This document shows positions 1,061-45,909 of a stretch of 64,000 nt of DNA, one piece after another. Both the position numbers and the translations under genes were made by a program. Each line of letters begins with the position of its first letter. The first letter of the stretch is position 1. Source of the stretch: Conchocele bisecta (lineage: Eukaryota; Mollusca; Bivalvia; Lucinida; Thyasiridae); the NCBI GenBank assembly GCA_029237695.1, contig CM055265.1:46747056-46811055 (forward strand), written 5' to 3'. Under the pieces are notes generated by a model. The model had not been told where the DNA came from. It made no database searches and saw only the letters and a list, made by a program, of their open reading frames with translations.

Positions 1061-1655
1061 GGTTAAAGTTTTTGGTTAAGTTGTTTGGTTAAGTTTTTTG
1101 GTTAAATTTTTTGGTTAAGTTCTTTGGTTAAAGTTTTTGCTTAAGTTGTTTGCTTAAAATTTTTCGTTATACTATATCTCTGCAACTGCTTTGCCCATTA
1201 CCTTGAACCTTCACATGGGTGTTTATCATCATCTATATTTTCATTCTACACCCCTTCCGTGCGGCCCCTGTACCCAATGTCAAGGTCAAATTACTTTGAA
1301 GTTTTTGGTTAAGTTTTTTGGTTAAAGTTTTTGGTTAAGTTTTTTGGTTAAGTTTTTTTGGTTAAAGTTTTTGGTTAACTTTTTTGGTTAAGTTTTTTGG
1401 TTAAAGTTTTTCGTTATACTATATCTCTGCAACTGCTTTGCCCATTACCTTGAAACTTCACATGGGTGTTTATCATCATCTATATTTTCATTCTACCCCC
1501 TCCCGTGCGGCCCCTGTGCCCAATGTCAAGGTCAAATTACTTTGAAGTTTTTGGTTAAGTTTTTTGGTTAAAGTTTTTCGTTATACTATATCTCTGCAAC
1601 TGCTTTGCCCATTACCTTGAAACTTCACATGGGTGTTTAGCGTCATCTATATTTT
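1061..1655. repeat. GGTTAAGTTTTTT-type simple repeat with interspersed 150-bp blocks
   Basis: Runs of GGTTAAGTTTTTT and GGTTAAAGTTTTT alternate with a longer block (TATATCTCTGCAACTGCTTT ... AATGTCAAGGTCAAATTAC) present three times, near 1170-1300, 1415-1540 and 1583-1655. The same composite occurs in opposite orientation at 47575-49160 and 50940-51150 and 56400-56640. No coding content. Confidence 0.75.
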
Positions 1656-1659
1656 CATC

Positions 1660-2245
1660 TTTGTATTGGCCGAATATGTACACAGAACATAGGAACCTCT
1701 CTTTATCAGGGAACAAGCTTTGTATTGGCCGAATACGTACACAGAACATAGGAACCTCTCTTTATCAGGGAACAAGCTTGGTATTGGACGAATACGTACA
1801 CAGAACACGAGAACCTCTCTTTATCATGGAACAAGCTTTGTTCCCTGATAAAGAGAGGTTCCTGTGTTCTGTGTACGTATTCGGCCAATACAAAGCTTGT
1901 TCCCTGATAAAGAGAGGTTCCTGTGTTCTGTGTATGTATTCGGCCAATACAAAGCTTGTTCCCTGATGAAGAGGTTCCCGTATTCTGTGTACGTATTCGG
2001 CCAATACAAAGCTTGTTCCCTGATAAAGAGAGGTTCCTGTGTTCTGTGTACGTATTCGGCCAATACAAAGCTTGTTCCCTGATAAAGAGAGGTTCCCGTG
2101 TTCTGTGTACATATTCGGCCGATACAAAGCTTGTTCGCTGATAAAGAGAGGTTCCAGTCTTCTGTGTACGTATTCGGCCAATAAAAAGCTTGTTCCCTGA
2201 TAAAGAGAGGTTCCCGTGTTCCGGTTACGTATACAAAGCTTGTTA
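1660..2245. repeat. Inverted 59-bp minisatellite array abutting an ACP7 exon
   Basis: Three units of 59 bp (TTGTATTGGCCGAATACGTA ... GGAACAAGC) run one way from 1660 to about 1836. About seven run the other way from 1836 to 2245. The junction near 1828-1844 is itself palindromic, so the region could fold into a hairpin with arms of at least 175 bp. The last partial unit (GCTTGTTACCTGATTAA) runs directly into the splice acceptor at 2260 and resembles the array unit GCTTGTTCCCTGATAAA, so the array includes sequence like the intron end. Open frames here are translations of the repeat. Confidence 0.85.
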
Positions 2246-2260
2246 CCTGATTAATTGCAG

Positions 2261-2458
2261 TTACTCGACTGAGGTGTTCTTCACGTCAGGCGGGAAGTAC
2301 GTGCAGAGCCAGAAGTCGTGGATCCAAGCGGACCTGGACGCAGCGAACACGAACCGACAACGCTGTCCCTGGATCATTGCCTTCGGACACCGACCCCTCT
2401 ACTGCTCCAACAATGACAGCGATGACTGCACCAAAGAGGACTCGCTCGTACGCGCCGG
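2261..2458 (+). CDS. ACP7: ACP7-like purple acid phosphatase, internal exon (metal-site His motif)
   Basis: This exon encodes part of the metallophosphatase domain of a purple acid phosphatase of the animal ACP7 type, a predicted secreted or luminal dinuclear metal enzyme hydrolysing phosphomonoesters. The 66 residues include YSTEVFF, WIQADLDAANTNR and PWIIAFGHRPLYCSN, followed by DDCTKEDSLVRAG. The GHRP histidine is the family's fourth metal-binding motif, and CSNxDxDDCT is typical of ACP7 rather than plant PAPs. The acceptor is TTAATTGCAG at 2251-2260 and the donor GTATGT at 2459. One base at the start and two at the end belong to split codons; the end phase matches the next exon at 3771. 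Earlier exons with the first three metal motifs must lie upstream of the window. Family assignment is secure; exact function is inferred from homology. Confidence 0.88.
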
Positions 2459-2877
2459 GTATGTGTACAGAGAATATCAGGCTAGTGTGTTTTGATATCA
2501 AGTTATCCGGCTCAGCTCGTAAACAGTAAGAATCCGAAGTGAACCTAATATTTTGGCAATTTCTGTACCAGTTTTCAAAATCTGACTTGTATCAGTTTCC
2601 AGGTAGCTTTCAGAGTTAATTTCCATTCTTTTTACTTGCCTCGACCCACCACCATTTTGATTTGAGCCATGTTGAAGGGCTTGACAGACAAAATGGGCTC
2701 ATGTAGCGTGTCAAGCTGACAAATCAAAAGTTGCGAATGTCGTATTATAATTGACTATGCCTAGTTCAAAGCCTTGCTTGGTATTCGCTTTCCAGTGCAG
2801 AATTTGACATACATTTTGTTAAATGGACATAATATCAATCAAAACGTGTATCAGTGTATCATATTCTTGCGTTATAG
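2459..2877 (+). other. ACP7 intron, unique part
   Basis: The intron starts GTATGT and has no recognisable repeat for 419 bases. Its end, TATTCTTGCGTTATAG at 2862-2877, has a better pyrimidine content than the array units and is followed by GTTTGAGAGCCTG. It therefore looks like the ancestral 3' splice site from which the adjacent array expanded. This origin is an inference. Confidence 0.5.
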
Positions 2878-3770
2878 GTTTGAGAGCCTGGATCATGTTG
2901 CATTGTAGTTTTGAGAGCCTGTATCATGTTGGTCGTAGGTTTGAGAGCCTGGATCATGTTGCATTGTAGGTTTGAGAGCCTGTATCATGTTGCATTGTAG
3001 GTTTGAGAGCCTGTCACATGTTGCATTGTAGGTTTGAGAGCCTGTATCATGTTGCATTGTAGGTTTGAGAGCCTGTATCATGTTGCATTGTAGGTTTGAG
3101 AGCCTGTCACATGTTGCAATGTACGTTTGAGAGCCTGTATCATGTTGCATTGTAGGTTTGAGAGCCTGTATCATGTTGGTCGTAGGTTTGAGAGCCTGGA
3201 TCATGTTGCATTGTAGGTTTGAGAGCCTGTATCATGTTGCATTGTAGGTTTGAGAGCCTGGATCATGTTGCATTGTAGGTTTGAGAGCCTGTATCATGTT
3301 GGTTGTAGGTTTGAGAGCCTGGATCATGTTGCATTGTAGGTTTGAGAGCCTGGATCATGTTGCATTGTAGGTTTGAGAGCCTGTATCATGTTGGTTTGTA
3401 GGTTTGAGAGCTGGATCAAGTTGCATTGTAGGTTTGAGAGCCTGGATCATGTTGCATTGTAGGTTTGAGAGCCTGTATCATGTTGCATTGTAGGTTTGAG
3501 AGCCTCTATTGTGTTGCATTGTAGGTTTGAGAGCCTGAATCATGTTGCGTTGCAGGTTTGAGAGCCTGGATCATGTCGCATTGCAGGTTTGAGAGCCTGA
3601 ATCATGTTGCATTGTAGGTTTGAGAGCCTGTATCATGTTGCATTGTAGGTTTGAGAGCCTGTATCATGTTGGTTGTAGGTTCGAGAGCCTGAATCATGTT
3701 GCATTGTAGGTCTGAGAGCCTGTATCATGTTGGTTGTAGGTTTGAGAGCCTGTATCATGTTGCATTGTAG
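2878..3770 (+). repeat. 31-bp minisatellite made of the ACP7 splice acceptor and exon start
   Basis: About 29 head-to-tail units of 31 bp. Each has 13 bp identical to the start of the next exon (GTTTGAGAGCCTG) followed by 18 bp of intron ending TTGTAG (variants GCATTGTAG, GGTTGTAG, GGTCGTAG). The final unit's TAG is the real acceptor at 3768-3770. Read in the exon's frame, every unit ends in an in-frame TAG, so use of any upstream acceptor would give a premature stop. Units differ only by scattered substitutions, with few length changes. Confidence 0.93.
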
Positions 3771-3964
3771 GTTTGAGAGCCTGTTCTACGACAACGGTGT
3801 AGACGTGGTGCTGCAGGCGCATGAACACTCGTACGAGCGGCTGTGGCCGATGTATAAGGGCGTGGTCCTCTCAACCAACTACACCAACCCCGCCGCCCCC
3901 GTCCAGCTGATCACAGGGGCCGCCGGCAGCAAATACGGCGTTGACAAGATGAACCCAGTACACC
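3771..3964 (+). CDS. ACP7: ACP7-like purple acid phosphatase, internal exon (AHEHSYER motif)
   Basis: This exon continues the phosphatase domain: FESLFYDNGVDVVLQ, AHEHSYERLWPMYKG, then YTNPAAPVQLITGAAGSKYG. AHEHSYER is the fifth metal-binding motif, its two histidines corresponding to the GHxH signature, and LITGAAG is the conserved strand-loop near the active site. One base completes the GG-G glycine codon from the preceding exon. At the end a single C remains, which pairs with AT at 23053. That phase match selects the donor GTATGT at 3965 over the GTACAC at 3958. The exon is bounded on both sides by tandem arrays that copy its own ends: its first 13 bases are repeated upstream and its last bases plus donor are repeated downstream. 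Accurate splicing therefore requires choosing the last of many equivalent acceptors and the first of many equivalent donors. Confidence 0.88.
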
Positions 3965-6900
3965 GTATGTATACGTCGGTCACAATGTGAAATGGGTTTG
4001 AGAACCGTACCATGTTGGGTTGTAGGTTGATGGGTCCAGTACACCGTATGTATACGTCGGTCACAATGTGAAACAGGGGTTTGAGAGCCGTACCATGTTG
4101 GGTTGTAGGTTGATGGGTCCAGTACACCGTATGTATACATCGGTCGCAATGTGAAACAGGGGTTTGAGAGCCGTACCATGTTGGGTTGTAGGTTGATGGG
4201 TCCAGTACACCGTATGTATACGTCGGTCACAATGTGAAACAGGGGTTTGAGAGCTGTACTGTGTTGGGTTGTAGGTTGATGGGTCCAGTACACCGTATGT
4301 ATATATCGGTCGCAATGTGAAACAGGGGTTTGAGAGCTGTACCATGTTGGGTTGTAGGTTGATGGGTCCAGTACACCGTATGTATACGTCGGTCACAATG
4401 TGAAACAGGGGTTTGAGAGCTGTACTGTGTTAGGTTGATGGGTCCAGTACACCGTATATATACGTTGGTCACAATGTGAAACAGGGGTTTGAGAGCTGTA
4501 CTGTGTTGGGTTGTAGGTTGATGGGTCCTGTACACCGTATGTATACGTCGGTCGCAATGTGAAATGGGTTTGAGAACCGTACCATGTTGGGTTGTAGGTT
4601 GATGGGTCCAGTACACCGTATGTATACGTCGGTCACAATGTGAAACAGGGGTTTGAGAGCTGTACTGTGTTGGGTTGATGGGTCCAGTACACCGTATGTA
4701 TACGTCGGTCACAATGTGAAACAGGGGTTTGAGAGCTGTACTGTGTTGGGTTGATGGGTCCAGTACACCGTATATATACGTTGGTCACAATGTGAAACAG
4801 GGGTTTGAGAGCTGTACTGTGTTGGGTTGTAGGTTGATGGGTCCTGTACACCGTATGTATACGTCGGTCGCAATGTGAAATGGGTTTGAGAACCGTACCA
4901 TGTTGGGTTGTAGGTTGATGGGTCCAGTACACCGTATGTATACGTCGGTCACAATGTGAAACAGGGGTTTGAGAGCTGTACTGTGTTGGGTTGATGGGTC
5001 CAGTACACCGTATGTATACGTCGGTCACAATGTGAAACAGGGGTTTGAGAGCTGTACTGTGTTGGGTTGTAGGTTGATGGGTCCAGTACACCGTATGTAT
5101 ACGTTGGTCACAATGTGAAACAAGGGTTTGAGAGCTGTACTGTGTTGGGTTGTAGGTTGATGGGTCATGTACACCGTATGTATATATCGGTCGCAATGTG
5201 AAACAGGGGTTTGAGAGCCGTACCATGTTGGGTTGTAGGTTGATGGGTCCAGTACACCGTATGTATACATCGGTCACAATGTGAAACAGGGGTTTGAGAG
5301 CCGTACCATGTTGGGTTGTAGGTTGATGGGTCCAGTACACCGTATGTATACAACGGGTACCATGTGAAACAGGGGTTTGAGAGCCGTACCATGTTGGGTT
5401 GTAGGTTGGATGGGGTCCATTGTACACCGTATTTGTATACTGGTCACAATGTGAAACAGGGGTTTGAGAGCTGTACCATGTTGGGTTGTAGGTTGATGGG
5501 TCCAGTACACCGTATGTATACGTCGGTCACAATGTGAAACAGGGGTTTGAGAGCTGTACCATGTTGGGTTGTAGGTTGATGGGTCCAGTACACCGTATGT
5601 ATATATCGGTCACAATGTGAAACAGGGGTTTGAGAGCCTGTACCATGTTGGGTTGTAGGTTGATGGGTCCAGTACACCGTATGTATATATCGGTCACAAT
5701 GTGAAACAGGGGTTTGAGAGCTGTACCATGTTGGGTTGTAGGTTGATGGGTCCAGTACACCGTATGTATACGTCGGTCACAATGTGAAACAGGGGTTTGA
5801 GAGCTGTACCATGTTGGGTTGTAGGTTGATGGGTCCAGTACACCGTATGTATACCATCACGTCACAATGTGATAAACAGGGTTTGAGACTGTACCATTGT
5901 TGGGTTGTAGTTTGATGGGTCCTAGTACACAGTATGTAGGGTCAGTCGGTCACAATGTGAAACTGTAGGGGAATGTGAACAGTTTAGCGTACCTGTTGGG
6001 TTGTAGGTTGATGGGTCCCAGTACACCGTAGTACTGTAGTACGTCGGTCCACAATGTGACACGGGGTTTGTTTTTTAGAGCTGTACCATGTTGTGTAGGT
6101 TGAATGGGTCCAGTACCAGTATGTATACGTCGGTCACATGTGAAATTCGGGTTGTAGTTGATAGGGGCTCCAGTACACCGTATGTATACGTCGGTCACAA
6201 TGTGAAACAGGGGTTTAGAGGGGCTGTACCATGTTGGGTTGTAGGTTGATGGGTCCAGTACACCGTATGTACGTTGGTCACAATGGAACCGAGGTGTTTT
6301 GAGAGCTGTACCAGTTGGGTTGTAGGTTGATTGGGGTCCAGTACACCGTATATATACGTTCGGTCACAAATGTCGAAACAGGGGTTTGAGAGCTGTACCA
6401 TGTTGGGTGTAGTTGATGGGTCCAGTACCACCGTATGTATACGTCGAGTCGTCATTGCAAGGTGAAAAACAGGGGTTTCCCGAGAGCTCGTACCATGTCT
6501 GGAGCGTTGGTTGTAGGTTTGAATGGGTCCAGTACACCGTATGTATATATCGGTCACAATGTGAAACAGGGGTTTGCCAGAGCTAGGTTGACCTGTGTGG
6601 GTTGTACGTTGTCATGGGTCCAGTACACCGTATGTATATGTCGGTTCACAATGTGAAACAGGGTTTAGTTTAGAGCTGTACCATGTAATTGGGTGTAGGG
6701 GGTGTTGATGGTCCAGTTACACCGTATGTATACATCGGTCACAATGTGAAACAGGGGTTTGAGAGCAGTTTTGTACCATGTGGGTGTAGGTCTTGTATTA
6801 TGGGTCCACCGCAGGGTTTTACACCCGGTTATAGCTATACGTTGGTCACAATGTGAAACAGGGGTTTGAGAGCTGTACCATGTTTGGGTTGTAGGTTGAT

Positions 6901-9900
6901 GGGTCCAGTACACCGTAGTATACATCGGTCCACAATGTGAAATGGTTTGAGAGCCTGTACATGATTGGGTTTTGTAGGTAGATGGGTTCTTTAGTACACC
7001 GTATGTATATACGTCGGTCACAATGTGAAACAGGGAATTGAGAGCTTTGTACATGTGGGTTGTATTTTGTTGATGGGTCCAGTACACCGTAATGTATATG
7101 TCAGGTCACAATGTGAAACAGGGGTTTGAGAGCCTGTACCATGTGTTGTAGGTTGATGGGTCCAGTTAACACCCGTATGTACTACATTGGTCACAATATG
7201 AAAACAGGGGTGGGGTTTGAGAGCTGTACCATGTTGGGTTGTAGGTTGATGGTCCAGTACACCGTATGTATACTCGGTCACAATGTGAAAAAACAGGTTT
7301 GAGAGCCTGTACCATGTTGGGTTGTAGTTAATGGGTCCAGTACACCGTATGTTATACGTCGGTCACAAATGTGAAAACAGGGGTTTTGAGAGCTGTACCA
7401 TGTTGGGTTGTAGGTTGATGGGTCCAGTACACCGTATGTATACGTTGGTCACAATGTGAAACAGGGGTTTGAGAGCTGTACTGTGTTGGGTTGTAGGTTG
7501 ATGGGTCCAGTACACCGTATGTATACGTCGGTCACAATGTGAAACAGGGGTTTGAGAGCTGTACCATGTTGGGTTGTAGGTTGATGGGTCCAGTACACCG
7601 TATGTATACATCGGTCACAATGTGAAACAGGGGTTTGAGAGCTGTACCATGTTGGGTTGTAGGTTGATGGGTCCAGTACACCGTATGTATACGTTGGTCA
7701 CAATGTGAAACAGGGGTTTGAGAGCCGTACCATGTTGGGTTGTAGGTTGATGGGTCCTGTTACACCGATGTATACATCGGTCACAATGTGAAACAGGGTT
7801 TGAGAGCCTGTACCTGAGTTGGGTTGTAGGTTGATGGTCCAGTTACACCGTATGTATATATCGGGTTCACAAGTGAAGAAACAGGGAGTTTGAGAGCTGT
7901 TACCATGTTTGGGTTGTAGGTTGATGGGTCCAGTACACCGTATGTATATTCGGTCACAATGTGAAACAGGGGTTTGAGAGCCTGTACCATGTTGGGTTGT
8001 AGGTTGATGGTCCAGTACACCGTAGGAATACGTTGGTCACCAATGTGAACAAACAAGGGGTTTGAGAGCTGTACCATGTTGGGTGTAGGTTGATGGGTGG
8101 GGGCCAGTACACCGTATGTATACGTCGGTCACAATGTGAAATTTGGGGTTTGAGAGCCGTTACCATGTTGGGTTGTAGGTTGGAATGGGACATACACCGT
8201 TATGTATATATCGGTCACAATGTGAAACAGGGGTTTGAGAGCCGTACCAATGTTGGGTTGTAGGTTGATGGGTCCAGTACACCGTGATGTATACGTCGGT
8301 CACAATTGTGAAACAGGGGTTTGAGAGCTTGTACATGTTGGGTTTGTAGGTTTGATGGGTCCAGTACATGTATACATCGTCACAATGTGAAACAGGGGTT
8401 TGAGAGCTGTACATGTGTAGTTGATGGGTCCAGTACACCGAATGTATACATCGGTCACAATGTCAAAAAGGGTTTGAGAGCTGTACCATGTGGGTTGGGT
8501 TGATGGTTGATGGGTCCAGTACACCGTATGTATAGACGTTTGGTCACAATGTGAAACAGGGTTTGAGAGCTGTACCATGTTGGGTATGTAGGTTGATGGG
8601 TCCAGTACACCGTATGTATACGTTAGGTCACAATGTGAAACAGGGGTTTGAAGAGACTGTACATGTGGGTTGTAGGTTGAATGGGTCCAGTACACCGTAT
8701 GTATACAATCGGTCACAATGTGAAACAGGGGTTTGAGAGCTGTACATGTTGGGTTGTAGGTTGATTGTGGGGTCCAGTACACCGTATGTATACGTTGGTC
8801 ACAATGTGAAACAGGGGGGGTTTTGAGAGCTGTACCATGTTTGGGTTGTAGTTGATGAGGTCCAGTACACCGTATGTACGTCGTCACAATGTGAAACAGG
8901 GGTTTGAGAGGCTGTACTGTGTGTTGAGTTGATGGGTCCAGTACACCGTATGTATACGTCGGTCACATGTGAAACAGGGGTTTGAGAGCTGTTACTACAT
9001 GTCCGGGGTCTTGTAGTGTTAATGGTCCAGTACACCTGTTAATGTATAGGGCATCGGTCACAATGTGACACAGGGGGTTTGAGAGAGTACTGTACATGTT
9101 GGGTTGTAGGAGGTTGATGGGTCCAGTACAAACCGTATGTATACGTTCGGTCACAATGTGAAACAGGGGTTTTGAGAGCCTGTACCATGTTGGTTGTAGG
9201 TTGATGGGTCCAGTACACCTATGTATACGTCGGGGTCACAATGTGAAACAGGGGTTTGAGAGCTGTACTTAGTTGGGTTGTAGGTTGATGGGTCCAGTAC
9301 ACCGTAATGTATAACACGTCGGTCACAATGTGAAACAGGGGTTTGAGAGCTGTACATGTGGGTTGTAGGTTTGATGGGTCCAGTACACCGTATAAAATAT
9401 CGTTCGGTCACAATGTGAAACAGGGGTTTGAGAGCCTGTACCATGTTTTGGGTTGTAGGTTGATGGGTCCAGCTACACCGTATGTAATACGTTGGTCACA
9501 ATGAAACCAGGGGTTGGAGAGCTGGTAACCAATGTTGGGTTTGTAGGGTTTTTGCTGGGTCCAGTACAACCGGTAATGGGGTATAAGTCGGGTCACCATG
9601 TAAGAAACAGGGGTTTGAGAGCTGTACTTGTTGGGGTTGGGTTGAATGGGTCCAGTACACCGTATTGTAATACATCGGTCAAACAAAAATTTGTGAAACC
9701 ATGGGTTCCTTGAAGCTGGTACTGTGGGGTTTGGGTTGTAGGGTTGGAATTGGATCCAGTTGGCAAACCGGTTTAATGTAAACCGGTGGTCACATGTTAA
9801 ACAAGGGGTTGAGAGCTGTACCTGGGTGTTGGGTTTAGGTTGGAATGGGTCCAGGGGTTTACAACCGGTTATTATACCGTTGGGTCTCAATGGGTTTTGA

Positions 9901-12900
9901 AACCAGGGGTTGAGGGAGCCTGGTACTGGTGGTTGGGGTTGTAAGGGTTGATTGGGTCCAAGTACAAACCGTATGTTATACGGTCGGTCACAATGTTGTG
10001 GAAACAGGGGTTTGAGGAAGCTTTGTACTTGTGGGTTGGGTGAGGTTCCAGGTTTACACCGGTTATGGGGTATACCATTCGGTCACAATGTGAAACAGGG
10101 GTTTGAGAGCTGTACTGTGTTGGGTTTGTAGGGTTGATGGGTCCCAGTACACCGTATGTATACGTTGGTCACCAAATTTGAGAAACAGGGTTTGAGAGCT
10201 TGGTACTGTGGGTTTGGTTTGTAGGTTTGGATGGTCCAGTACACCGATATGGTAATAAACGTTGGTCCAACCAATGTGGAAACAAGGGGTTTGAGAGCTG
10301 TAACCTTGTGGTTGGGTTGGGTAGTTGATGGGTTCCAAGTAACAACCGAATTGTATTACCGTCCGAGGTCACAATGGTGAAACAGGGGTTTGAGAAGCCT
10401 GAACCTGTGTTGGTGGGGTTTAGGTGATGGGTTCCAGGTTACCATCCGTATGTATACGTCGGTTCAAAACAATTGTGAAACCGGGTTTTTAGAGGCCATT
10501 ACTGTGTAGGGTTGTAGGGGTTTGAATTGGTCCAGGGTACCCGTAAATGTATACGTCCGGTCACAATGTTGAAACCAGGGGTTTGAGAGCCTTACCTTGG
10601 GTTGGGTTTAGGTTGAAGGGTCCAGAACACCGTATGTATACGTCGTCCCACAATTGTGAAACAGGGGTTTGAGACTGTACCATGTTGGGTTGTAGGTAGA
10701 TGGGTCCAGTACACCCGTATGAATACAATTCGGGGTTTCACCAATGTGAAAACATGGTTTGAGAGCTGGGTACCAATGTTGGGGTTTTGTAAAGGGTTTG
10801 ATGGGTCCAGTACACCGTATGTATACGTTTGGGGTCACAAGTTGAAACCAGGTGGAAGAAACGGGTTTACAAGTTGGGTTGAGGTTGAAGGGTCCAGTAC
10901 ACGATGGGTTAATAAACGTTTTTTTGACACATGGTTGAACCAGGGGTGGAGAGCTGTACAATGTTGGGTTGTAAGGTTTGTTTTGATCCACACCGTAGTA
11001 TACTCGGGTCACAATTTGAAACCAGGGGTTTTGAGAGCTGTACCTTGGGTTGTTGGGTTGATGGGTCCAGTAACACCGTAGTATACATCGGTCACAATGT
11101 GAAACAGGGGTTTGAGAGCGTACTTGTGGTTGGGTTGTAGGTTGATGGGGTCCAAGTTTAACCACCGATGTATACGTCGGTCACAAATGGGGTTTGAAAG
11201 TTGGGTTGGGAATTTGATGGTCCAGTACACCGTATGAATACTCGGGGTTCCCACCATGTGGGCCAACAGTTTTGAGGCTGTACCATGGTTGGGTTTGGTT
11301 TTAGGTTGATGGGGTCCCATAAACACCGTAATGGTATAAACGGGGTTGGTCACATGTGAAACAGGGGTTTGAGAGCTTTTGTTACCATTTTGGGTTTTGT
11401 AGGTTTTAATTGGGTCCCAGTACACCGAATGTAATAACGTCGTCCGGGCCAATGTGAAACAGGGTTTGGGAGAGCTGTACCAATTAGGGATGTAGGTTGA
11501 TTGTCAGTTAACACGGTTTTAATGTATTAAATGGTTGTCACATTGTGAAAACCAGTGAAGAGGCTGTACTTTGTGTGGGTTGGGTTAAGGTTGGTGGGGT
11601 CCAGTACCCCACGGAATGGTATTATGTCTGTCACAATGTGGAAACTGGGTGAGAAGCTGTACTTGTATTGGGTTGGGTTAGGTTGGATGGGGTCCAGACA
11701 ACCGTTATGTATATATCGTTCAACAATGTGAAACAGGGGTTTGAGGACCGTACCATGATGGGTTGTAGGTTGATGGGTCCAGTACACCGTATGTTATACT
11801 TGGTCACAATGTTGAAACAGGTTTGAGAGCCGACCATTTGGGTTGGGTTTGTAAGTGATGGGTCCTGGTTCACCGTATTTTGTTTATAACATCCGACACC
11901 ATGTGACAAAAGGGGTTTGAGAAGCCGTACCATTGGGTTGGGTTTAGGTTGAATGGGTCCAGTACAAACCGTAATTGTATAATTAATCCGTCCAACCATG
12001 TGAAACAGGTTGGGTTTTGAGAGCCGTACCATGTTGGGTTTAGTGATGGGGTCCAGTACACCGTAAGTATATGTTGGGTTTCACCATTGGTGAAACAGGG
12101 GTTTGGGAGAGTCCGAAACATTTTGTTGGGTTGTAGGGTTTGATGGGTCCAGTACACCGTATGTACGTTTGGGTTTCAAAATTGTTGACAGGGTGAGAGC
12201 TGTACATTGTTGGGTTTGTAGGTTTGATGGGGTCCATACCACCGTTATGTTTATACCGGGTCCGTCACAATGTTGAAATGGGGTTTGAGAGCCGTACCAT
12301 GTTGGGTTGTAGATTTGTGTCTAGTACCACTGTATTGTATACCGTCGGTCACAATGTGAAACAGGGGTTTTGAGAGCTGTACCATGTTTGGGGTTGTAGG
12401 TTTGATGGTCCACCGACACCGTATGTATACGATTTAAAGGAGTCCACCAAAAGAAACAGGGGTAAGAGAGAGCTGTACTGGTTGTTTGGGTTGTAGTTGA
12501 ATGTCCAGGGTTTACACCGTAATGTTATACCATCGCAAACAATTTTGTGAAACCAGGGTGAGAGCTGGTCAATGTTGGGTTGGTAGTGAATGGGTTCCCA
12601 GTACACCCGTATGTATACATCGGGTCACAAATGTGAAACAGGGGTTTGAAGAGCTGTACCATGTTGGGTTGTAGGTTTATGGGTCCCAGTACCCGTATTG
12701 GGTTATACGGGTTGGTCCAATGTGAAACAGTAGAAAGGAACAGTAAACATGTTGGGGTGTTAGGTTGATGGGTCCGTACACCTAGTATACATGTCCACAA
12801 TGTGAAACAGGGGTTTGAGGGAACTGTAACCATGTTTGGTTGGTTAGGTTAAGGGTCCCAGGGGTACACGATTGGTATACATCCGTCGGCCCCCAAACAT

Positions 12901-15900
12901 TGTGGAAACAGGGGTGAGAGCTTGGTACAATTTGGGGTTTTAGGGTTGAAGGGTTTGATGGGACAGTCAACGTATGGTAATACGTTTGCAACAATTTGAA
13001 ACAGGGGTTTGAGAGGCTGTACCCATTTGTTGGATTGTAGGTTGATGTCCAGTACCCCGTATGTAACTCGTCACATGTGGAAACAGGGGTTTTGAGACTG
13101 TTACCTTGTTGGGTTTATGGATGGGTCCAGTAACACGGTAATGGGGTTATACATAGTCACAATGTGATACAGGGGTTTGAGAACGTAACCAAGTTGGGTT
13201 TGAGGTTAATTGGGTCCAGTACAACCGTATGTAATACATCGTTCACAATGTTAAACCAGGGGTTTGAGAACCGTACCAATTTGGGTTGTAGTTGATTGGG
13301 TCCAGTACACCGTAATGTATACTTGGTCACTGTTAAACAGGGGTTTGAGAGCTTGTAACCTGTTGGGTTGTAGGTAGATGGGTCCAGAACCACCAGAATT
13401 TATATGTCGTCCCACCAATGTGGAAACGGGGTTTGAGAGCTGACCTGTTGGGATTTGTAGGTTGATGGGTCCAGTAACAACCGTATGTATACATAGGTCA
13501 CAATGGTGAAACAGGGGTTTAGAGCCGACCATGTTTTGGGTTGATTAGGGTTGAAGGTCAAAAAACCGTATGTTATACGTTGGTCACCAATGGGAAACAG
13601 GGTTTTGAGAGCCGTACCATTGTTGGGTTGTAGGTTGATGGGCCCCAGTTCCACCGTATGTAAACCTCGGTCACAAATTGAAAAGGGTTTGAGTGCCGGA
13701 CCATGTTGGGTTTGAAAGTTTTATGGGTCCAGTAACAACCGTATTTAAACATTGGTCACAATGTTAAAAACAGGGGTTTGAGAGCCGAAACCAATTGGTT
13801 TGGGTTTTAGGTTGATGGGTCCAGTACACCGTATTATACGTTTGTCACAAATGTTAAACAGGGGTTTGAGAGTGTACCATTTGGGTGTTTAGATGATGGG
13901 TCCAGGGGTACACCGTTATGTATACGTCGGTCACAATTTTGAAACAGGGGTTGAGAGCTGTACACTGTTATTTGTAGTTGATGGGTCCAGGGGTAGCACC
14001 GTTATGGTATACCTTCTGTCACAATGTGAAACAGGGGGTTTTGAGAGCTGTACATGGGTGTTGGTTGTAGGTTTATGGGTCCCAGTACACCGTATGTATA
14101 CGTCGGTCACAATGTGAAACAGGGTTTGAGAGCGTTGGACATGTGGGGTTTAGGGTATAGGTTGATGGTCCAGTACACCGTATGTATTACGTGGTCACAT
14201 GTGAAACAGGGGTGGGGTTTGAGAACTGTACATTGTTGGGGTTGTAGGTTAATGGGTTCCAGTACAAACCGTATGTAACATCGTCACATTGTTGAAACGG
14301 GTTTGAGAGCGTACCATGTATTGGGGTTTGTAGGTTTGATGGGTCCAGTACACCGTAAATGTATCGTCGTCACATAGTGGGAAACAGGGGTGATGAAAGC
14401 AGGGGTTTGAGAGCTTGTACTGTTGTTTGGGTTGTTAGGTGATGGGTTCCATACCACCGGATGTATACGTTGGTCACAATGTGAAACAGGGGTTTTGATA
14501 CTGTACATGTTGGGGTTGTAGGTTTGATGGGTCCAGTACAACGTATTGTAATATCGGTCACAAGTGAAACATGGGTTTGAGAGCAGTACCATGTTGGTTT
14601 AGGTTGATGGGTCCAGTACAAACACGATGTATACATAAGGCGTTTGGACACAAATGTGAAACAGGGTTTGAGAACCGTACCATGTTGGGTTGAAGGATTG
14701 ATGGTGTCCAGTACACCGTATGTTATACCTCGGTCACCAATGTGAAACAGGGGTTTGAGAACCGTGACCATGGTTTTGGGTTGTAGGCTATGATGGGTCC
14801 AGTACATACCCGTATGATAATACGATCGGTCACACAATGTGAAACAGGGGTTTGTTGAAGAGCTTTACCATGTTGGGTTGTCGGTTGATGGGTCCAGTAC
14901 AAAATACCGTATGAATACGTCGGTCACAATAGTGAAACAGGGGTTTTTGTGAGATCCTGTACCATGGGTTAAATTTTTTATATTTATGGGTTGTAGGTTG
15001 ATGGGATCCCAGTACAACCGTGATGTATACCGTCGGGTCACTAATGTGAAAACAGGGGTGTTGAAGAGCTGTACCATGTTGGGTGTAGGTTGATGGTCCA
15101 ATACACAACCTAACACCGTATGTATAGGCGCCTGTCACAATGAGAAACAAGGGGTTTTGAGAGGCCTCCGTACCATGTTGGGGTTGTAGGTTGATGGGTC
15201 CAGTACAGACCTGTATGTATAATATACGTCGGGTCACAAAAATAAAAAACAAAAAGTGAAACAGGGGTATGAGAGCTTGAACCATGTTGGGTTGTAGGTT
15301 GATGGGTCCAGTACACCGTATGTATACGTTGGTCACAATGTGAAACAGGGGTTTGAGAACTGTACCATGTTGGGTTGTAGGTTGATGGGTCCAGTACACC
15401 GTATGTATACGTCGGTCACAATGTGAAACAGGGGTTTGAGAGCTTGTACCATGTGTTGGGTAGGTTGATGGGTCCAGTACACCGTATGTATAGTCAGGTC
15501 ACAATGGTGAAACTGTTGAGAAACCGTACATGTTAGGGTTTGTAGGTTTGATGGGTTCAGTAACAGATGTATACTCGGTCAACAATGTGACTTTGGGGTT
15601 TGGGACCGTACCATGGTTGGGTTTGTAGGTTGATGGGTCCAGTACACCGTATGTATACGTCGGTCACAATGTGAAACAGGGGTTTGAGAGCTGTACCATG
15701 TTGGGTTGTAGGTTGATGAGGGTCCAGTCCCACCCGTAATGTATACGTCGGTTCACAATGTGAAACAGGGGTTTGAGAGCTGTACCATGTTGGGTTGTAG
15801 GGTTGATGGGTCCAGTTACACCGTAAGTTATACGTGGTCACAAATGTGAAAACAGGGGTTTTTGAGAACCTTGTACCAGGTTGGGTTGTGGTTGAAAAAT

Positions 15901-18900
15901 GGGTCCAGGGGTACCAGTTTATGTATACGTTCGTCATGTGAAACAGGGGTTTGTTGGAACCGTCCATGTTGGGTTGTAGGTGGGATCGGGTCCAGTACAC
16001 CGTATGTATACGTCGGTCACAAATGTGAAACAGGGGGTTTGAGACTGTACCATGTTGGGTTTGTAGGTTGATGGTCCAGTACACCGTTGTATACGTTGGT
16101 CACAATGTGAAAACAGGGGGTGAGAGCTGTTCCAATGGTTTGGGTTGTAGGGTTGATGGGTCCAGTACACCGTTTTGTATAGTTCGGGTCACAATGTGAA
16201 AAAACAGGGGTTTGAGGGGCTGTACTGTGTTGGGTTTGATGGGTCCAGTACACCCGAATGTATACTTCGTCACAATGTTGAAAACGGGGTTTGGAGGGCT
16301 TGTACTGTGTTGGGTTGTAGTGATGGGTTCCAGTGACCGTATGTTATACGTTTGGTCACAATGTGAAACAGGGGTTTTTGAGAGTCTGTTACTGTGTTGG
16401 GTTGTAGGTTGATGGGTCAGTACAAACGTATGTATAGTCGGTCACATGTGAAACAGGGGTTTGAGAGCTGTTTACTGTGTTGGGTTGTAGGTTGGATGGG
16501 TCCAGTACACCGTATGTATACGTCGGTCACAATGTGAAACAGGGGTTTGAGAGCTGTACCATGTTGGGTTGTAGGTTGATGGGTCCAGGTACACCGTTAT
16601 GTATACGTCTGGTCACAATGTGAAAACGGGGTTTGAGAGCTGTTACTGTTGGGTTGTAGGTTGATTTGGGTTCCAGTTAACACCATTTGTATACTCCGGG
16701 TCCACAATGTGAAAAACAGGGGTTGAAGAGCTGTACAATGTTTGGTTGTAGGTTGTGGGTCCAGTACACCGTATGTACGTTGGTCACAATGTGAAACAGG
16801 GGTTTGAGAACTTTACCATGTTGGGTTGTAGGTTGATGGGGGGTTCCCCCCCCCCAGTACACCGTTTAGTTACATCGGTCACAAATTGTGAAACTGGGGT
16901 TTTGAGACCGTACCATGTTGGGTTGTAGGTTGATGGGTCCATTACACCGTATGTATACGTTTCGGGGGTCACAATGTGATTAAACAGGGGTTTGAGAGCT
17001 GTACCATGTTGGGTTGTTAGGTGTTGATGGGTCCAGTACACCGTATGTATACGTCGGTCACAATGTGAAACAGGGGTTTGAGAGCTGTACCTGTTGGGTT
17101 GTAGGGCTTGATGTATCAGTAACACCGTATTGTTATCGGGTCCGTCACAATGTGGAAACATGGGGTCGGGGGAGGCTGTCCATTGGTTGGGTTTGTAGGT
17201 TGGGGGTTCCATACACCGTATGATACGTTGGTCACATTGTGAAACAGGGGTTTGAGAGCGTACTGTTGGGTTGTAGGTTGATGGGTCCAGTACACCCGTT
17301 ATGTTATAGGTCGTCAGCAATTGGGTGTGGGACAGGGGTGATGAGGCTTGTAAAACCATTTGTTGGGTTGTTAGGGTTGAGGGTCCAGTGCACCGTATGT
17401 ATACGTTGGTCACAATGTGAAAACAGGGGTTTTGAGAGCTGTTACCTGTGTTGGGGTTGTAGGTTGGATGGGTCCAGTACACCGTATGTATACGTTTGGT
17501 CACAATGTGAAACAGGGGTTTGAGAGCTGTACTGTGTGGGTTGATGGGTTCCAGTACACCTAGTGGATCTCGGTCCACAATTGTGAAAACAGGGGTTTGG
17601 AGGCTCCTTGTACTGTGTTGGGTTGTAGGTTGATGGGTCAGTCACGTTATGTATTTAAGTCGGTCCACAATGGTGAAACGGGGGTTTGAGAGCTGTACTG
17701 TGTGGGTTGTAGGTGATGGGTCCAGTACACCGTATGAATACGTCGGTCACAAATGTGAAACAGGGGGTTTGAGAGCTGTACTGTGTTGGGTTGTAGGTTG
17801 ATGGGTCCAGTACACCTATGTAATAAAGTTTCGGTCACAAGTGGAAACAGGGGTTTGAGAACTTGTACATGTTGGGTTGTTGGTTGAATTGGTCCAATTA
17901 CGTTATGATACATCGGTCACAATTTGAAACAGGGGTTTGAGAGCTGTACCATGTTGGGTTGTAGGTTGATGAGGGTTCCAGTACACCGTTTGTATACGGT
18001 TGGTCACAATGTAAAAAACGGGGTTTGAGAACCGTACCATGTTGGGTTGTAGGTTGATGGGTCCAGGTCACCGTTAAGTTTTCTTGGTCCACAATGTGAA
18101 ACAGGGGTTTGAGAATCTGTACCATGTTGGGTTGTTGGTTGATTTGGGTCCAGTAAACCGGGTATACGTCAGGGTCACAATGGGGTTTGATAGGGGGTTG
18201 TGGGAGCTGGACTTGGGTTTGGGGTTGTATGGTGATGGGTCCAGTACACCGAGTATACGTCGGGTCACAGGGTGAAACAGGGGTTGGTTGGAAGAGGGGT
18301 GTACCATGTTTGGGTTGTAGGTTGATGGGTCCAGTACACCGTTGTATTCGTGGTTCACAATTGTGAAACCAGGGGTTTGAGAGCCTGTACCATGTTGGGT
18401 TTTGTAGGTTATTGGGTCCAATACACCGTATGTATAGGGTCCTGTAAACAATGTTGATCTTGGGTGAGAGGGCCGTACCATGTTGGGTTGGTAAGGTGAA
18501 TTGGGAGTTAAACGTTTTGTTTAGTCCGGGTCAACCATTGTGGACTGGGGTTTGAGGGGTTTTTGAGAGCTGTATGTTGGGGTTGTAGGTGATGGGTCCA
18601 GTACACCGTTATGTATTACTGGTCCAATGTGAAAAACGGGGTTGAGAGCCGTACCTTGTTGGGTTGTAGGTTGATGGGTCCGTACACCTATGGTACGTTG
18701 GTCACAAATGTTGGAAACAGTGGGGAGGCTGTTTGGGTTGTTGGGTTGATGGGTCCGTTCACCGAATGTCCATCGGTCACAATGGTGAAATGGGGTTGAG
18801 AGCGTACTGTTGGGTTGGTAGGTTGTGGGTCCAGTACCGTATGTATTTATTGGTCACAATTTGTGAAAACAGGGGTTTGGAAGAGTGTACTGTTGGGTTG

Positions 18901-21900
18901 TAGGTTGATGGGTCCAGAACCCGTATTGTATAGTTTGGTCACATGTTGAAACAGGGGTTTGAGAGCCGTTCCATCGTTGGGTTGTAGGTTGATGGGTCCA
19001 GTACAACCGTTGAATAAGTTGGTCACAATGTGAAAAAGGGGGTTTGAGAGCTGTAAACCATGTTGGGTTGTTAGGTTTGATGGGTAAGTACACTATGTAT
19101 AGGTCGGTCAATGTGAAATGGGTTTGAGAGCCGTCCTTGTTGGGTTGTAGGTTGATTGTATAGTCACTGTATGTATCGGTCGGGGTCAACCAATGTGACT
19201 GTTTGAGCTGTACATGTTGGGTTGTAGGTTGATTGGGTCCACCTACACCGTATGTTTACGTCAAGTCACAATGTGAAACAGGGGTTTGAGAGCTGTACTG
19301 TTGTTGGTTGTAGGTTGATTGGGTCCAGTAACACCGTATGTATACATCGTCACCATGTGAAACAGGGGTTTTGAGAGCTGTACCATTTTGGGTTGTAGGT
19401 TGATGGGTCGTACACCGTTATGTATAATCGGTTCACCAATGTTGAAACAGGGGTTTTGAGCTGTACCATGTTGGGGTTGTGGTTGATGGGTCCAGTACAC
19501 GTTTTTAATTAATAAGTTGTCACAATGTGAAACAGGGGGTTTGAGAACTGTACCATGTTGGGTTGTAGGTTGGATGGGTCCAGTACACGTATGTATACGT
19601 TTGGTCAAATGTGAAACAGGGGTTTGAGAAACTGTACCATGTTGGGGTGTTAATTATAATGTAAACCGTTTATGTATACATCGGTCAACAATGTGAGGGG
19701 TTTGAGAAGCCTGTAACATGTTGGGTTGTGGTTGATGGGTCCAGTACACCGTATGTACGTTGTCACAATGTTTTGAGGGGTTTGAGGCTGTTACATTGTT
19801 GGGTTGTAGGTTGATGGGTCCAGTACACCGTATGTATACGTCGGTTCACAAGTGAAACAGGTTTGAGGAGCTGTTGTGTTGGGTTGGGATGGTCCAGTAC
19901 ACGAATGTATAACCATCGTCCACATGTGGAAACAGGGGTGAGAGCTGTACGTGTTGGGTTTGTAGGTTGGATGTTCAGTGCACCGTATGTAATAGTTGGT
20001 CACAATGTGAAACAGGGGTTTGAGGCTGTACGGTGTTGGGTTGTAGGGTTTGATGGGTCCAGTACACCGTTATGTACGTTGGTCACAATGTGAAACAGGG
20101 GTTTGGAGCTGTACTGTGTTGGGTTGTAGGTGAGGGGTCAGTACACCGTATGTATTCGTCGGTCCACAAAGTGAACAGGGGTTGTGAGGGGGAACTGTAC
20201 TGTGTTGGGGTTTGTAGGGTTGGATGTCCAGACACCGTATGTTTATTACGTCGGTCACAATGTGAAAAGGGTTTGAGAGCTGTAAGTTGTTGGGTTGTAG
20301 GTTGTGGGTTCCAGTACACCGTATGTATACGTCGGTTCACAATTGTAGAAAACAGGGGTTTGGAGCCTGTACCTGTGTTGGGTTGTAGGTTGATGGGGTC
20401 CAGTACACCGTTTGTATTACGTCGGTCACCAAGTGAAAACAGGGGTTTGAGAAACTTTACCATGTTGGGGGTTGTTGGTTGATGGGTCCAGTACAACGTA
20501 TGTATACATCGGGCACAATGTGAAACGTTGGAGAGCGTACCATTGTTGGGTTGTAGGTTGATGGGTCCCAGTACACCGTATGTATCGTTGGTCACAATGT
20601 GGAAACAGGGGTTTGAGAACGTTCCATGTTGGGTTGTAGGTTGATGGGTCCAGTACACCGTTGTATACACGGTCACAATGTGAAACAGGGGTTTGAGAAC
20701 CGTACCATGTTGGGTTGTTAGGTTGATGGGTTCCAGTACACGTATGTATACGTCCGGTCAAATGTGAAAAAGGGGTTTGAGAAGCTGTACCATGTTGGGT
20801 TGTAGGTTGATGGGTCCAGTACACCGTTATGTATACGTCGGGTAACAATGTGAACGGGGTTTGAGAGCTGTAACCATGTTTGGGGTTGTTGGTTGATGGG
20901 TCCTACACCGTATGTATACGTCGGTCACAATGTTGAAAAGGGGTTTGAGGCTGTACCATGTTGGGTTGTAGGTTGAGGGTCCAATACACGTATTAAACGT
21001 CCTGTCACAATGTGAAACAGTGGAGCCGTACCATGTTGGGTTGTCGGTTGATGGGTTCCATACACCGGATGTATACGTCGGTCCACAATGTGAAAACCGG
21101 GGTTTTTGAGGCTGTACCATGTTGGGTTGTAGGTTGATGGGTCAGTACAAGTATGTATAAACGTTGGTCACAATGTGGAAACAGGGGTTTGAGAGCTTGT
21201 AACCATGTTGGGTTGTAGGTTGATGGGTCAGTACACGTATGTATTCGTCGGTCACAATGTGGAAACGGGGTTTGAGCTGTACTTGTGTTGGGTTGATGGG
21301 TCCGTACACCGTATGTTACATCGGTACATTGTGGGAAAAACAGTTGAGAGGGCTTGTACTGTGTTTGGGGTTGTAGGTTGTTGGGTCCAGTGCACCCGTA
21401 TGTATCCGTTGGTTCCACAATGTTGAAAACCAGGGGGTTTGAGGAGTGTACTGTTTGGGTTGTAGGTTGGATGGGTCCAGTAAACCGTTATGTATCGTTG
21501 GTCAACAATGTGACAGGGGTTTGAGGAGTTTTTCTGTGTTGGGTTTGTGTTTGTTGTGGGTCCAGTACAAAGTATGGTTTTTTTTTAAAAAATTTACTTT
21601 TCCGGGGGGGGGTAACAATGTCAGGGGTTTGAGAGCTGTCTGTGTTGGGGTTGTAGGTTGATGGGTCCAGTACCCGGATGTATAGTTTTTTCTTCACAAT
21701 GTGAAACCGGGGTTTGAGAAGTGTACTGGTTGGGTTGTAGGTTGAATGGTCCAGTACACGTATGTATACGTCGGGTCCAATGTGAAAACAGGTTTGAGGG
21801 TGTACTGTGTTGGGGTTGTAGGTTGATGGGTCCAGTTCGTATGTATACGTCGGTCACCATGTGAAACAGGGGTTTGAGATGTACATGTTGGGTTGTAGGT

Positions 21901-22707
21901 TTGGTGGGTCCAGTAACCGTTTATGGTATAAAAGTGGTCACAATTGTGAAACAGGGGTTTGAGGCTTGTACCATGTTGGGTTGTAAAGGTGATGGGTCCA
22001 GTACACCGTATGTATTCGTTGGTCACAATGTGGGTAAACAGGGGTTTGAGAACGTACCTTGTTGGGTTTGTATTTGATGGGTCCAGTACACCGTATGTAT
22101 TACATCGGTCACAATGTGAAAAAAGGGGTTTGAGAACCGTTACCGGGTTGGGTTGGGTTGATGGTCCAGCCACCGTATGTATACGTCGGGCACAATTGTG
22201 AAACAGTTTTGAGAGCTGTTGAACCATGTTGGGGTTGTAGGTTGAGGGTCCAGTACAACCGTATGTATCGCGGTCACAAATGTTGAAAACAGGGGTGAGA
22301 GCTGTACATGGTTGGGTTGTGGTTGATGGGTCCAGTAACCGTATGTACGTCGGGGTTTCACAATGTGAAAAAGGGTTTGAGAGCTGTTACCATGTTGGGT
22401 TGTAGGTTGAATGGGTCCAATAACCGTTTGGTTTACGTCCTGTCACAATGTGAAACAGGGGGTTTGAGGAGCGTTACAATGTTGGGTTTGTAGGTTGATG
22501 GGTCCGTACCGTTTGTTATTTCGTTGGTCACAATGTGAAAAGGGGTTTGAGAGCTGTACATGTTGGGTTGTAGGTTGATGGGTCAGTCAAGTATGTATAC
22601 ATCGGTCGCAATGTGAAACAGGGGTTTGAGAGCTGTACCATGTTGGGTTGTAGGTTGATGGGTCCAGTACACCGTATGTATATGTCGTTCGCAATGTGAA
22701 ATGGGAA
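3965..22707 (+). repeat. 83-bp minisatellite filling the ACP7 intron (about 225 units)
   Basis: The basic unit is 83 bp: GTATGTATACGTCGGTCACA, then AATGTGAAACAGGGG, a 30-bp block GTTTGAGAGC...TTGTAG, then GTTGATGGGTCCAGTACACC. A roughly 73-bp variant lacks the GTAGGTTGGG segment. The first unit starts at the real donor of the preceding exon, and each unit repeats that donor context (AGTACACC then GTATGT). The 30-bp block is clearly related to the 31-bp unit upstream. At 18.7 kb this would be about 225 units. 3965-5850 and short islands (about 7400-7740, 15310-15450, 16495-16600, 22590-22700) are clean. The rest is full of one-base gains and losses, most severe around 9.5-13 kb, which looks like uncorrected long-read consensus. 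Minus-strand open frames here, up to 264 codons, are repeat translations. Confidence 0.93.
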
Positions 22708-23052: not shown

Positions 23053-23606
23053 ATGACTGGTCAGCATTCAGAATGGACGACCGATCATTCAACAGCTATG
23101 GCCGACTGAAGGTGTTCAACTCGACCCACTTACACTGGGAGCAGGTAGGCGTGATCAATAACACCATTCTCGATTCCATATGGGTGACTCAGAAGTCACA
23201 CGGCCGCTTCCAACAGGCGGCGCTCGAACCAGAGCAAAAACAGAAAATCACGGAACAGTTGGAGAAGGAAGAAGAGATAGAGAAATCCAAGAAACCGTCG
23301 CAGACCGGCAGCAGCGATAAACCATCAAGTACATTGGAGAAGGTTACAAAAGCAATCAAGGGTGTGGACACAAAAGTGATAATTGGAATCTCGTTTGGTG
23401 TCTTTGTGTTGATCTTCCTGCTAATTGTTTTAATAGTGCGCAAGTGTTGTCGGAGACGACAGAAGACATTTCGGCGGTGGGAAATGTTGGATTATGGGAA
23501 AAAGTTTTACACAAATGTGAAAAATGATGAAAAAGAGGCGGATGACTTTGAAGCGGATGTTAATGATGGGACGACGAAGCTGCTTACAGACGATGTCCGT
23601 GGTTGA
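23053..23606 (+). CDS. ACP7: ACP7-like purple acid phosphatase, terminal coding exon with TM anchor
   Basis: The first part completes the phosphatase fold (DWSAFRMDDRSFNSYG, LKVFNSTHLHWEQVG, ILDSIWVTQKSHGRF). It is followed by a charged, Glu/Lys/Ser-rich linker of about 55 residues. Next comes one hydrophobic segment (VIIGISFGVFVLIFLLIVLI and one more residue), then RKCCRRRQKTFRR and an acidic tail ending LLTDDVRG before TGA at 23604-23606. The basic stretch after the helix predicts type I topology: catalytic domain outside or luminal, about 55-residue tail in the cytosol. The CC pair is a possible acylation site. AT at the exon start completes the codon begun by C at 3964. Vertebrate ACP7 as I know it ends soon after the phosphatase domain, so the anchor is an added feature. 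Family call secure; topology inferred. Confidence 0.88.
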
Positions 23607-38708: not shown

Positions 38709-40422
38709 AGAGGGCCATGATGGCCCTAATTCGCTCACCTGACTCCATGAACACCAGAGGAGAATGTGACATCGAGTTCATGTGTTTTAAAAAAAATTGT
38801 GCTATTTTTAGATGGCGGTCATCTTGGATTAAGCGATGACTCTCATTTTACCAAATCTGAAAATGCTTCACCCAAGGATCTTAACTTACTATGAAGTTTG
38901 GCCAGCATCAGCCATGTGCTTCCTGAGAAAAAGACGTTCAAAATCTCGAATAAATGGACCTTTTGGCGGCCATCAAGGATGACATAATCATCCGATTCAC
39001 AGATATTGCACCAGAGCAATCGCCTCATCGATAACTTCAATTTGATATACGACATGAGCATATTCGGTAAAAAATAAAATTTGACCCCACGGGCCACGCC
39101 CATTTTTGGCTTCGGGGTCACCATTTTAACACCTTTGAAAGAGCATTCTACATCGATCATTCCTACCAAGTTTCGTCGAAATGTGGCTGGCGGTTCAGGA
39201 GAAGAAGATTTTTTAAGAATTTGTGCTATTTTTAGACGGCAGCCATCTTGGCTTAGCGACGACCTCCGTTTTAACAAATCTGAAAAGGCTTCACCCATGG
39301 ACCATAAGTGTGAAGTTTGGCCACCATGGGCCAAGCGGTTTGTGTGAAGAAGAATTTTGAAATCTCTAATAAAATAACGACCTTTTGACCTTTCGGTGGC
39401 CATCTTGGATGACATGACCATCAAATTTCGACAAAAAATAATAAAAGAACGACCTTTTGACCTTTCGGTGGCCATCTTGGATGACATGACCATCAAATTT
39501 CGACAAAAAATGTACCAGAGCGATCGCCTCTTTGATACCTTCGGTTTGATATAGACACGACCATATTCGTCAAAAATTCGTCATACACGTCAAAAATCAA
39601 ATTTTACCCCAATTTGACCCCACAGGCCATGCCCATTTTTGACCCCGGGGTCACCATTTTAACAACTTTGAAAGAGCATTGTACATCGATCATTCCTACC
39701 AAGTTTCGTCGAAATCTGGCTGGCGGTTCATGAGAAGATTTTTTAAGAATTTGTGCTATTTTTAGACGGTGGCCATCTTGGATTAGCGATGACCTCCATT
39801 TTAACAAATCTGAAAAGGCTTCACCCATGGACCATAACTTTTAAGTTTGGCTACCATGGGCCAAGCGGTTCATGTGAAGAAGAATTTTGAAATCTCTGAT
39901 AAAAGAACGACCTTTTGACCTTTCGGCGGCCATCTTGGATGACATAACCATCCAATTTCGACAATAAATGCACCAGAGTGATCATCGCCTCGTTAATACC
40001 TTCGATTTGATATATAACATGACCATATTCGGTCAAAAATCAAATTTGACCCCAATTTGACCCCACGGGCCACGCCCATTTTTGACCCCGGGGTCACAAT
40101 TTTAACATCTTTGAAAGAGCATTGTACATCGATAATTCCTACCAAGTTTCGTCGAAATCCGGCTAGCAGCTCATGAGAAGAAGATTTTTTTAAGAATTTA
40201 TGCTATTTTTAGACAGTGGCCATCTTGGATTACGTAATGACGTCATGTTAACAATTTTGTAATCGCCCTACCTAAGGACCATGACCATGAAGTTTGGTGA
40301 CTATAGGCCCAATGGTTACCGAGGAGAAGACGTTTGAAAATGTTCACGGACGACGGACGACGACGGACGACGCGACACATTGCGGTAACAATAGCTCACA
40401 TGAGCTTTGCTCAGGTGAGCTA
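38709..40422. repeat. Mosaic interspersed repeat with internal near-tandem blocks
   Basis: The element begins GGGCCATGATGGCCCTAATT...CGCTCACCTGA and ends GAGCTTTGCTCAGGTGAGCT, giving inverted termini of the CTCACCTGA type. Inside, a block with CCCATTTTTGACCCCGGGGT, GAGCATTGTACATCGATCAT, AAGTTTCGTCGAAAT and GACCTTTCGGTGGCCATCTT occurs three times (near 39080, 39618 and 40055). A shorter 78-bp direct repeat sits at 39360-39510. Long open frames here, up to 217 codons on the minus strand, follow the repeat and have no domain. Confidence 0.75.
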
Positions 40423-45827: not shown

Positions 45828-45909
45828 CTGTAAACAGAATGTATCCCGTCAACACAGTGCCTATGTGCCGTGAAACAAGGTGCCGTGAAACATATTTCAT
45901 ATCCTGTCA

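Follow-up and report, generated by a model that had tools for sequence, protein, structure and literature searches.

How an intron comes to be filled with short tandem units that carry both a splice acceptor and a splice donor, and what such an array does to the gene that houses it, are the questions raised by a locus of the bivalve Conchocele bisecta. The window analysed here, 64,000 nucleotides in all, covers positions 46747056-46811055 of a 225.6-Mb sequence in a 1.89-Gb genome. The host gene codes for an ACP7-like purple acid phosphatase: its top protein match, 62% identical, is an ACP7-like protein from the clam Mya arenaria, and in a profile search the concatenated exons A, B and C matched Pfam Metallophos_C (residues 108-172 of the concatenated protein) and Metallophos. 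By eye, the ACP7-like protein also has a hydrophobic C-terminal stretch. Five more exon matches were found by tblastn in positions 1-26000 and the 40 kb upstream; no array lies within 1 kb of any of these five (TRF score ≥60, at least 2.5 copies), so that among the eight ACP7 exon matches, arrays made from an exon's own borders occur at exon B only. Rfam returned 0 matches within 1-26000. Elsewhere in the window, a frame bearing Integrase_H2C2, from a mobile element, occupies 40419-41033, and a C-terminal AMP-binding exon, encoded on the minus strand, lies at 45451-45906. The features on which the argument turns are listed below; the end of exon B (3964) and the start of exon C (23053) agree with the exon positions of an initial annotation of this DNA.

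2261..2458, plus strand: exon A of the ACP7-like gene, identified by tblastn through homology to ACP7-like proteins; donor CGG/GTATGT.
2867..3784, plus strand: 31-bp acceptor array, 29.8 copies by TRF; the unit includes TTGTAG and the first 13-14 nt of exon B.
3771..3964, plus strand: exon B, 194 nt, identified by ACP7 homology; both of its borders are copied into arrays.
3955..22707, plus strand: 83-bp array, 217 units (TRF 3955-22701; wrap-around alignment 3965-22707; end read directly).
3965..4045, plus strand: first 83-bp unit, made up of the donor and intron head (3965 to ~3996), an acceptor-array-like segment and a microexon-like segment.
3965..5844, plus strand: clean assembled start of the array, 23 units, delimited by insertion rates (7 insertions among the 23 units).
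5845..22590, plus strand: insertion-rich, noisy interior of the array, read as uncorrected long-read sequence.
23053..23606, plus strand: exon C, coding up to the stop codon; ordinary acceptor CCTGTAG.

The 83-bp array reported in the initial annotation is real and fills 3955-22707 of the intron behind the ACP7 exon at 3771-3964, with 217 units by wrap-around alignment in place of the approximately 225 proposed. TRF places its start within the last ten bases of exon B and the true donor inside the first unit; it is because the true junction belongs to this unit that the donor context of the array is, as had been stated, identical to that of the true donor. The unit comprises, in order, 33 nt of intron head (GTATGT...), 30 nt that resemble the 31-bp unit, and a version of the exon B tail shortened to 20 nt; this last segment matches the real exon tail at 14 of 17 positions when read directly, again as claimed. 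In the first unit, the acceptor-array-like segment ends with TTGTAG at 4025 and the 20-nt microexon-like segment occupies 4026-4045. Judged by its sequence, the 83-bp unit is a miniature of exon B, with an acceptor segment, a shortened 20-nt tail and the true donor context, and the view of an intact unit as a putative 20-nt exon flanked by an acceptor and a donor that both come from the exon's own borders is right as anatomy. The GT-AG 'introns' between these decoy sites measure 63 nt in most intact units, with 61 and 56 also occurring. Multi-unit blocks recur in the clean part (units 4454/4770, 4537/4853 and 4618/4934), and two 83-bp units fold no better than shuffled sequences (z 0.99).

The flank of exon B opposite the 83-bp array carries a further array, absent from the initial annotation. 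Its 31-bp unit holds TTGTAG and GTTTGAGAGCCTG, which correspond to the acceptor and start of exon B, and the final copy of the array coincides with the acceptor and start of exon B itself; the unit is identical to the start of exon B at 14/14 positions, a match equalled in 0/1000 shuffles. Local alignment of the 83-bp and 31-bp units gave a score of 48 with 31 of 35 columns identical, which none of 1000 dinucleotide shuffles attained (maximum 25). The 20-mer taken alone matches exon B more weakly, with 10 exact bases and a score reached by 5/1000 shuffles (2/1000 against the last 40 nt of the exon), although it is contiguous with a donor context identical to the true one; against exons A and C it showed no similarity (536 and 421 of 1000 shuffles, respectively). 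The origin of its first half is ambiguous, with three contiguous mismatches and a 5-nt gap relative to exon B, and no array unit matches exon B's own form, GATGAACC, no intermediate being preserved. In the alignment, the residues YGVDKMNPV, encoded at the end of exon B where the 20-mer has its source, are missing from the Mya arenaria model; this could reflect a gene-model difference or a moved donor.

We consider it probable (roughly 0.8) that the array is a giant minisatellite of the mirage type, grown from the gene's own exon/intron borders and removed with the intron, with leaky use of its sites possible. The units of both arrays span an exon/intron border of the host, and the repeated unit derives from the exon and intron that adjoin it in the host gene. 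A plausible course begins with a duplication running from inside the acceptor array, over exon B, and taking in 32-33 nt at the head of the following intron. The body of this exon copy would then have been lost, the probable end points being two similar stretches, GTTTGA at the start of the exon and GTTGA near its end; the resulting 83-bp miniature would have been amplified and homogenised through unequal exchange or slippage. The edges of the array bear on this history: AAATGGG is present in the first unit and at the array end, where it runs into unrepeated intron at 22707, and it occurs 9 times in the array (7 of them interior) versus 132 occurrences of the usual form, AAACAGGG. Its presence at both edges, which it shares with those seven interior places, is what an escape of the edges from homogenisation would produce, and likewise a first copy in which the acceptor array had become joined to the original intron head.

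In the pre-mRNA, the first donor, that of exon B, would be joined to the ordinary acceptor of exon C and the whole array would leave with the intron, since units of 20 nt would presumably be ill suited to exon definition. Some leakage through array sites may occur, and would truncate the protein in each case checked. A preference for the true splice pair over the decoys would be part of the mirage explanation. Against this explanation stand the facts that exon B's true sites have no visible advantage in strength over the decoys, that the 63-nt spacing could suit intron definition, and that the first half of the 20-mer has an ambiguous origin, with GATGAACC absent from the units.

Could the splice-like motifs instead be coincidental features of an ordinary intronic satellite? 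By a crude motif test, the acceptor-donor pair occurs in 6/34 TRF rows of the sample, representing this array and two others; by the strict pattern, too, two distinct arrays besides this one carry the pair. By this measure, finding such a pair within tandem units is nothing unusual per se, and the border homology is the part that chance would not be expected to supply; chance motif pairs as a full account are ruled out by that homology. Both parts of the unit are homologous to exon B borders, and the unit core and the 31-bp array are confined to the ACP7 locus, so that coincidence is scarcely credible. The initial annotation had stated that its reading would suffer if the unit turned up as an ordinary satellite at loci unrelated to this one, an outcome that did not emerge. 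The genome search gave 195 matches to the 83-bp unit, all in this array among the matches listed, and at up to one mismatch all 59 matches to the unit core were in this array, none reversed; such searches skip very common words, and a rare diverged copy elsewhere is therefore possible. A pair of 31-bp units gave 11/11 matches at the ACP7 locus. A dispersed satellite was accordingly rejected, as was an introner, of which copies would be expected in many genes, the matches listed for the unit and those for the 31-bp array lying at this locus. We also rejected a coding repeat: for the 297-aa reverse-strand frame, none of 202 candidate proteins matched at E ≤ 10. The whole-protein match of that frame to Pfam SEO_N (E 3.2e-08; 33.5 versus a cut-off of 27 bits) is read as a repeat artefact because no single stretch passes.

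The assembly itself calls for some caution. Over 3965-22707, the wrap-around alignment contains 16580 matches, 699 substitutions, 1464 insertions and 682 deletions. Insertions per unit column amount to 0, 0, 1.6 and 2.4% in the first four 500-bp intervals and to 2.4-20.5% (median 8.1%) in the remaining 34, with 7 insertions in the 23 clean units versus 1041 in the 191 interior units; 1113/1451 inserted bases copy a neighbouring base, where ~44% would be expected. Much of the divergence past ~5.85 kb thus looks like assembly noise, in the pattern of uncorrected long reads, and copy number and interior sequence are approximate as a result. Some interior variants (for example at unit columns 11, 13 and 44) are also found in the clean part, so that real variation is mixed into the noise. 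It is possible, if doubtful, that a real array has been assembled with a substantially wrong length (18.7 kb) and interior, collapsed or inflated, which would be compatible with the mirage explanation. The insertion-rich noise spanning 5.85-22.6 kb is consistent with this, as is the account of one mirage that was aberrantly assembled in a draft genome (PMC3087553); against it, one and the same unit is found in the clean 1.9 kb at the start and in the last intact copy (22591, with 2 differences), which shows that the array itself is no artefact.

The splice signals are well represented in the clean start without being universal. The initial annotation gave both motifs to each unit; among the 24 units starting in 3965-5900 this holds for GT (24/24), but AG, and with it both dinucleotides, is present in 21, and both exact motifs in 17; taken singly, GTATGT is exact in 21, TTGTAG in 20 and the 20-mer in 19. 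In the array as assembled, both exact motifs stand together in 60/217 units, and the unbroken string of TTGTAG, 20-mer and GTATGT occurs 27 times, 15 of these in 3965-5900. The three clean units without AG (4618, 4694 and 4934) represent one variant, and hence an acceptor-less unit was copied. Across the 191 interior units, substitutions and deletions together average 0.092 per unit in the GT/AG columns and 0.080 in the others; the array splice sites show no sign of upkeep in an interior that is too noisy for a sensitive conservation test. The U1-like match of the donor is 5/9 for exon B, 5/9 for intact decoys and 7/9 for exon A, and among 17 positions, pyrimidines number 13 for exon C, 10 for exons A and B alike, and 8-9 for the decoys examined. 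Simple strength measures fail to separate the true exon B sites from the decoys.

What would follow from use of the decoys is more drastic than the frame shift foreseen in the initial annotation: a TGA is met immediately (HR-stop). Inclusion of one, two or three consensus microexons yields ...MNPVHR-stop, and the distinct microexons caught by pattern in 3965-5900 give an immediate TGA in 3/3 cases. All 27 decoy acceptors of the 31-bp array caught by pattern lead to a stop before the exon B core, and with any of the 22 decoy donors lying downstream, in 3965-5900, the protein gains VHRMYTSVTM before a stop. Every decoy use checked reaches a stop before exon C is read.

These truncations invite functional readings of the array. 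It might act as a poison exon or truncation switch, in which regulated microexon inclusion leads to HR-stop and thence to a shorter, possibly soluble phosphatase or to mRNA decay. Such a switch would find acceptor and donor intact in 21/24 clean units, an immediate TGA with each of the three distinct microexons, and a stop that precedes most of Metallophos_C (108-172) and the C-terminal hydrophobic stretch; leaky retention of one VNTR unit, at 2 ± 1%, is described for ABCA7 (PMC5954066). We nevertheless regard regulated use as distinctly improbable: the splice dinucleotides are no more conserved than other columns, AG has been lost repeatedly, the acceptor tract is weak, and one microexon would put the stop ~15 nt before the last junction, where decay is not assured. 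A further reading, speculative and unlikely, is that the spliceosome samples some two hundred competing whole micro-exons. One or a few of these would then enter a share of ACP7 transcripts that depends on array length, and such transcripts would end in HR-stop and give a shortened, membrane-free phosphatase, with array length setting the ratio of full-length to truncated product. A role of the array sites in taking out the long intron step by step, by recursive or nested splicing, is very unlikely, even though tandem GT-AG pairs lie 63 nt apart and AG/GT is found at every unit acceptor: the site regenerated after a first step is, by eye, GTTGAT, a poor donor, the splice dinucleotides are not conserved, and any need for help arises only because the array lengthened the intron. 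Translated tandem exon repeats were rejected, since the frame closes with a TGA in 3/3 distinct microexons.

Four related genes in the genome have the same intron positions around exon B. In paralogue L026 (C14), a 96-bp array (1313-3229; 19.8 copies, 93% match) begins at the second base of the intron behind its exon A; the unit passes the strict acceptor-donor motif test, but hardly any exon sequence, if any, is contained in it. In L027, a relative of L026, the same intron holds two copies of 74 bp, ~20 bp in, and at the corresponding borders of L025 and L028 no array was seen. Together with the ACP7 locus, L026 and L027 indicate that border-hugging arrays recur in the ACP7 family. Two other repeats lie upstream of exon A in the window. 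A 158-bp tandem element at 198-919 (CCTTGGTTAAGG...) passes the strict splice-pair motif test, and similar repeats are present in the paralogue locus L028. A 59-bp array at 1659-2232 runs in both orientations, 1659-1841 being the reverse complement of 1833-2232; its unit is without exon sequence, only a partial unit ends shortly before the exon A acceptor, and a reading of the part before exon A (1833-2232) as another mirage found no support, the unit showing no similarity to the exon A start (score reached by 228/1000 shuffles).

In a survey of 30 protein-kinase loci, none had a border array as judged from TRF coordinates (period 30-200, 3 copies or more); sequence was inspected at two loci, and because most loci are long single-exon matches, the survey says little on the frequency of border arrays. 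Locus L062 (364-1455) has 30-bp repeats before a kinase domain, the last stretch (from 1380) being in frame with it. A small contig, C895, has many helicase matches with long uninterrupted frames and looks like bacterial contamination or a symbiont.

If the mirage explanation is right, exon B sits amid ~27 copies of its own acceptor and ~217 of its own donor and acceptor, and the locus would offer a natural single-locus test of spliceosome choice among many near-equal sites. It would also suggest that mirages occur beyond lancelets, and give a stepwise picture of how a border-derived unit acquires both splice signals, a proposed raw material for intron gain.

The statement in the initial annotation that no minisatellite made of splice-site pairs had been described proves too strong in view of amphioxus mirages and the human ABCA7 VNTR. 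The original mirage paper is reportedly that of Canestro in 2002. Mirages of the amphioxus genes Adh3, BflGb6, BflGb9, TnC and PGBD5 are described as tandem units over an exon/intron border with AG/GT signals; 5' and 3' borders can both be affected, and edge units escape homogenisation (PMC3087553). Regular splicing is reported to be undisturbed by known mirages (PMC3087553, PMC3902484). In lancelet PGBD5, 60-bp and 108-bp repeats adjoin splice sites in one gene, and one gene model, made automatically, places a predicted exon within the 108-bp ones (PMC3902484); by analogy, this comes close to a precedent for a repeat that houses an exon. Like these mirages, the ACP7 array units cross a host exon/intron border with AG/GT signals; unlike them, the 83-bp unit fuses the copied acceptor and donor of one exon, the body of which is lost, the arrays lie on both ends of one exon, the host is a bivalve, and there are ~217 units versus 3-7 in the amphioxus cases compared.

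The ABCA7 VNTR, in intron 18 of the human gene, consists of 25-bp units that start exactly at the exon 18 donor and number up to ~427 (10.7 kb); the effects described are low retention of one unit, leading to a premature stop, and length-dependent skipping of the next exon (PMC5954066). The ACP7 array likewise starts at an exon donor, and inclusion of a unit again leads to a stop, but the ABCA7 unit as described has a donor only, with neither an acceptor copy nor exon sequence, whereas the ACP7 unit has all three. Intron gain by tandem duplication, in which splice signals are inherited from the duplicated border, is reported for potato RdRp (PMC4974935); there a new intron is spliced, whereas any new splice in the ACP7 array would be hypothetical. 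In IR1 of EBV (W1-W2 exons), each tandem unit has exons with acceptor and donor (PMC12451641), but those exons are described as used and the repeat domains as translated, whereas every inclusion checked in the ACP7 array leads to a stop. A literature search, in which few subscription papers were covered, returned no mollusc mirage, nor any unit in which copies of an exon's two splice sites are combined. What appears to be new here is the union of a derived acceptor and donor in one short unit, the arrays flanking a single exon, the size of the array and the bivalve host.
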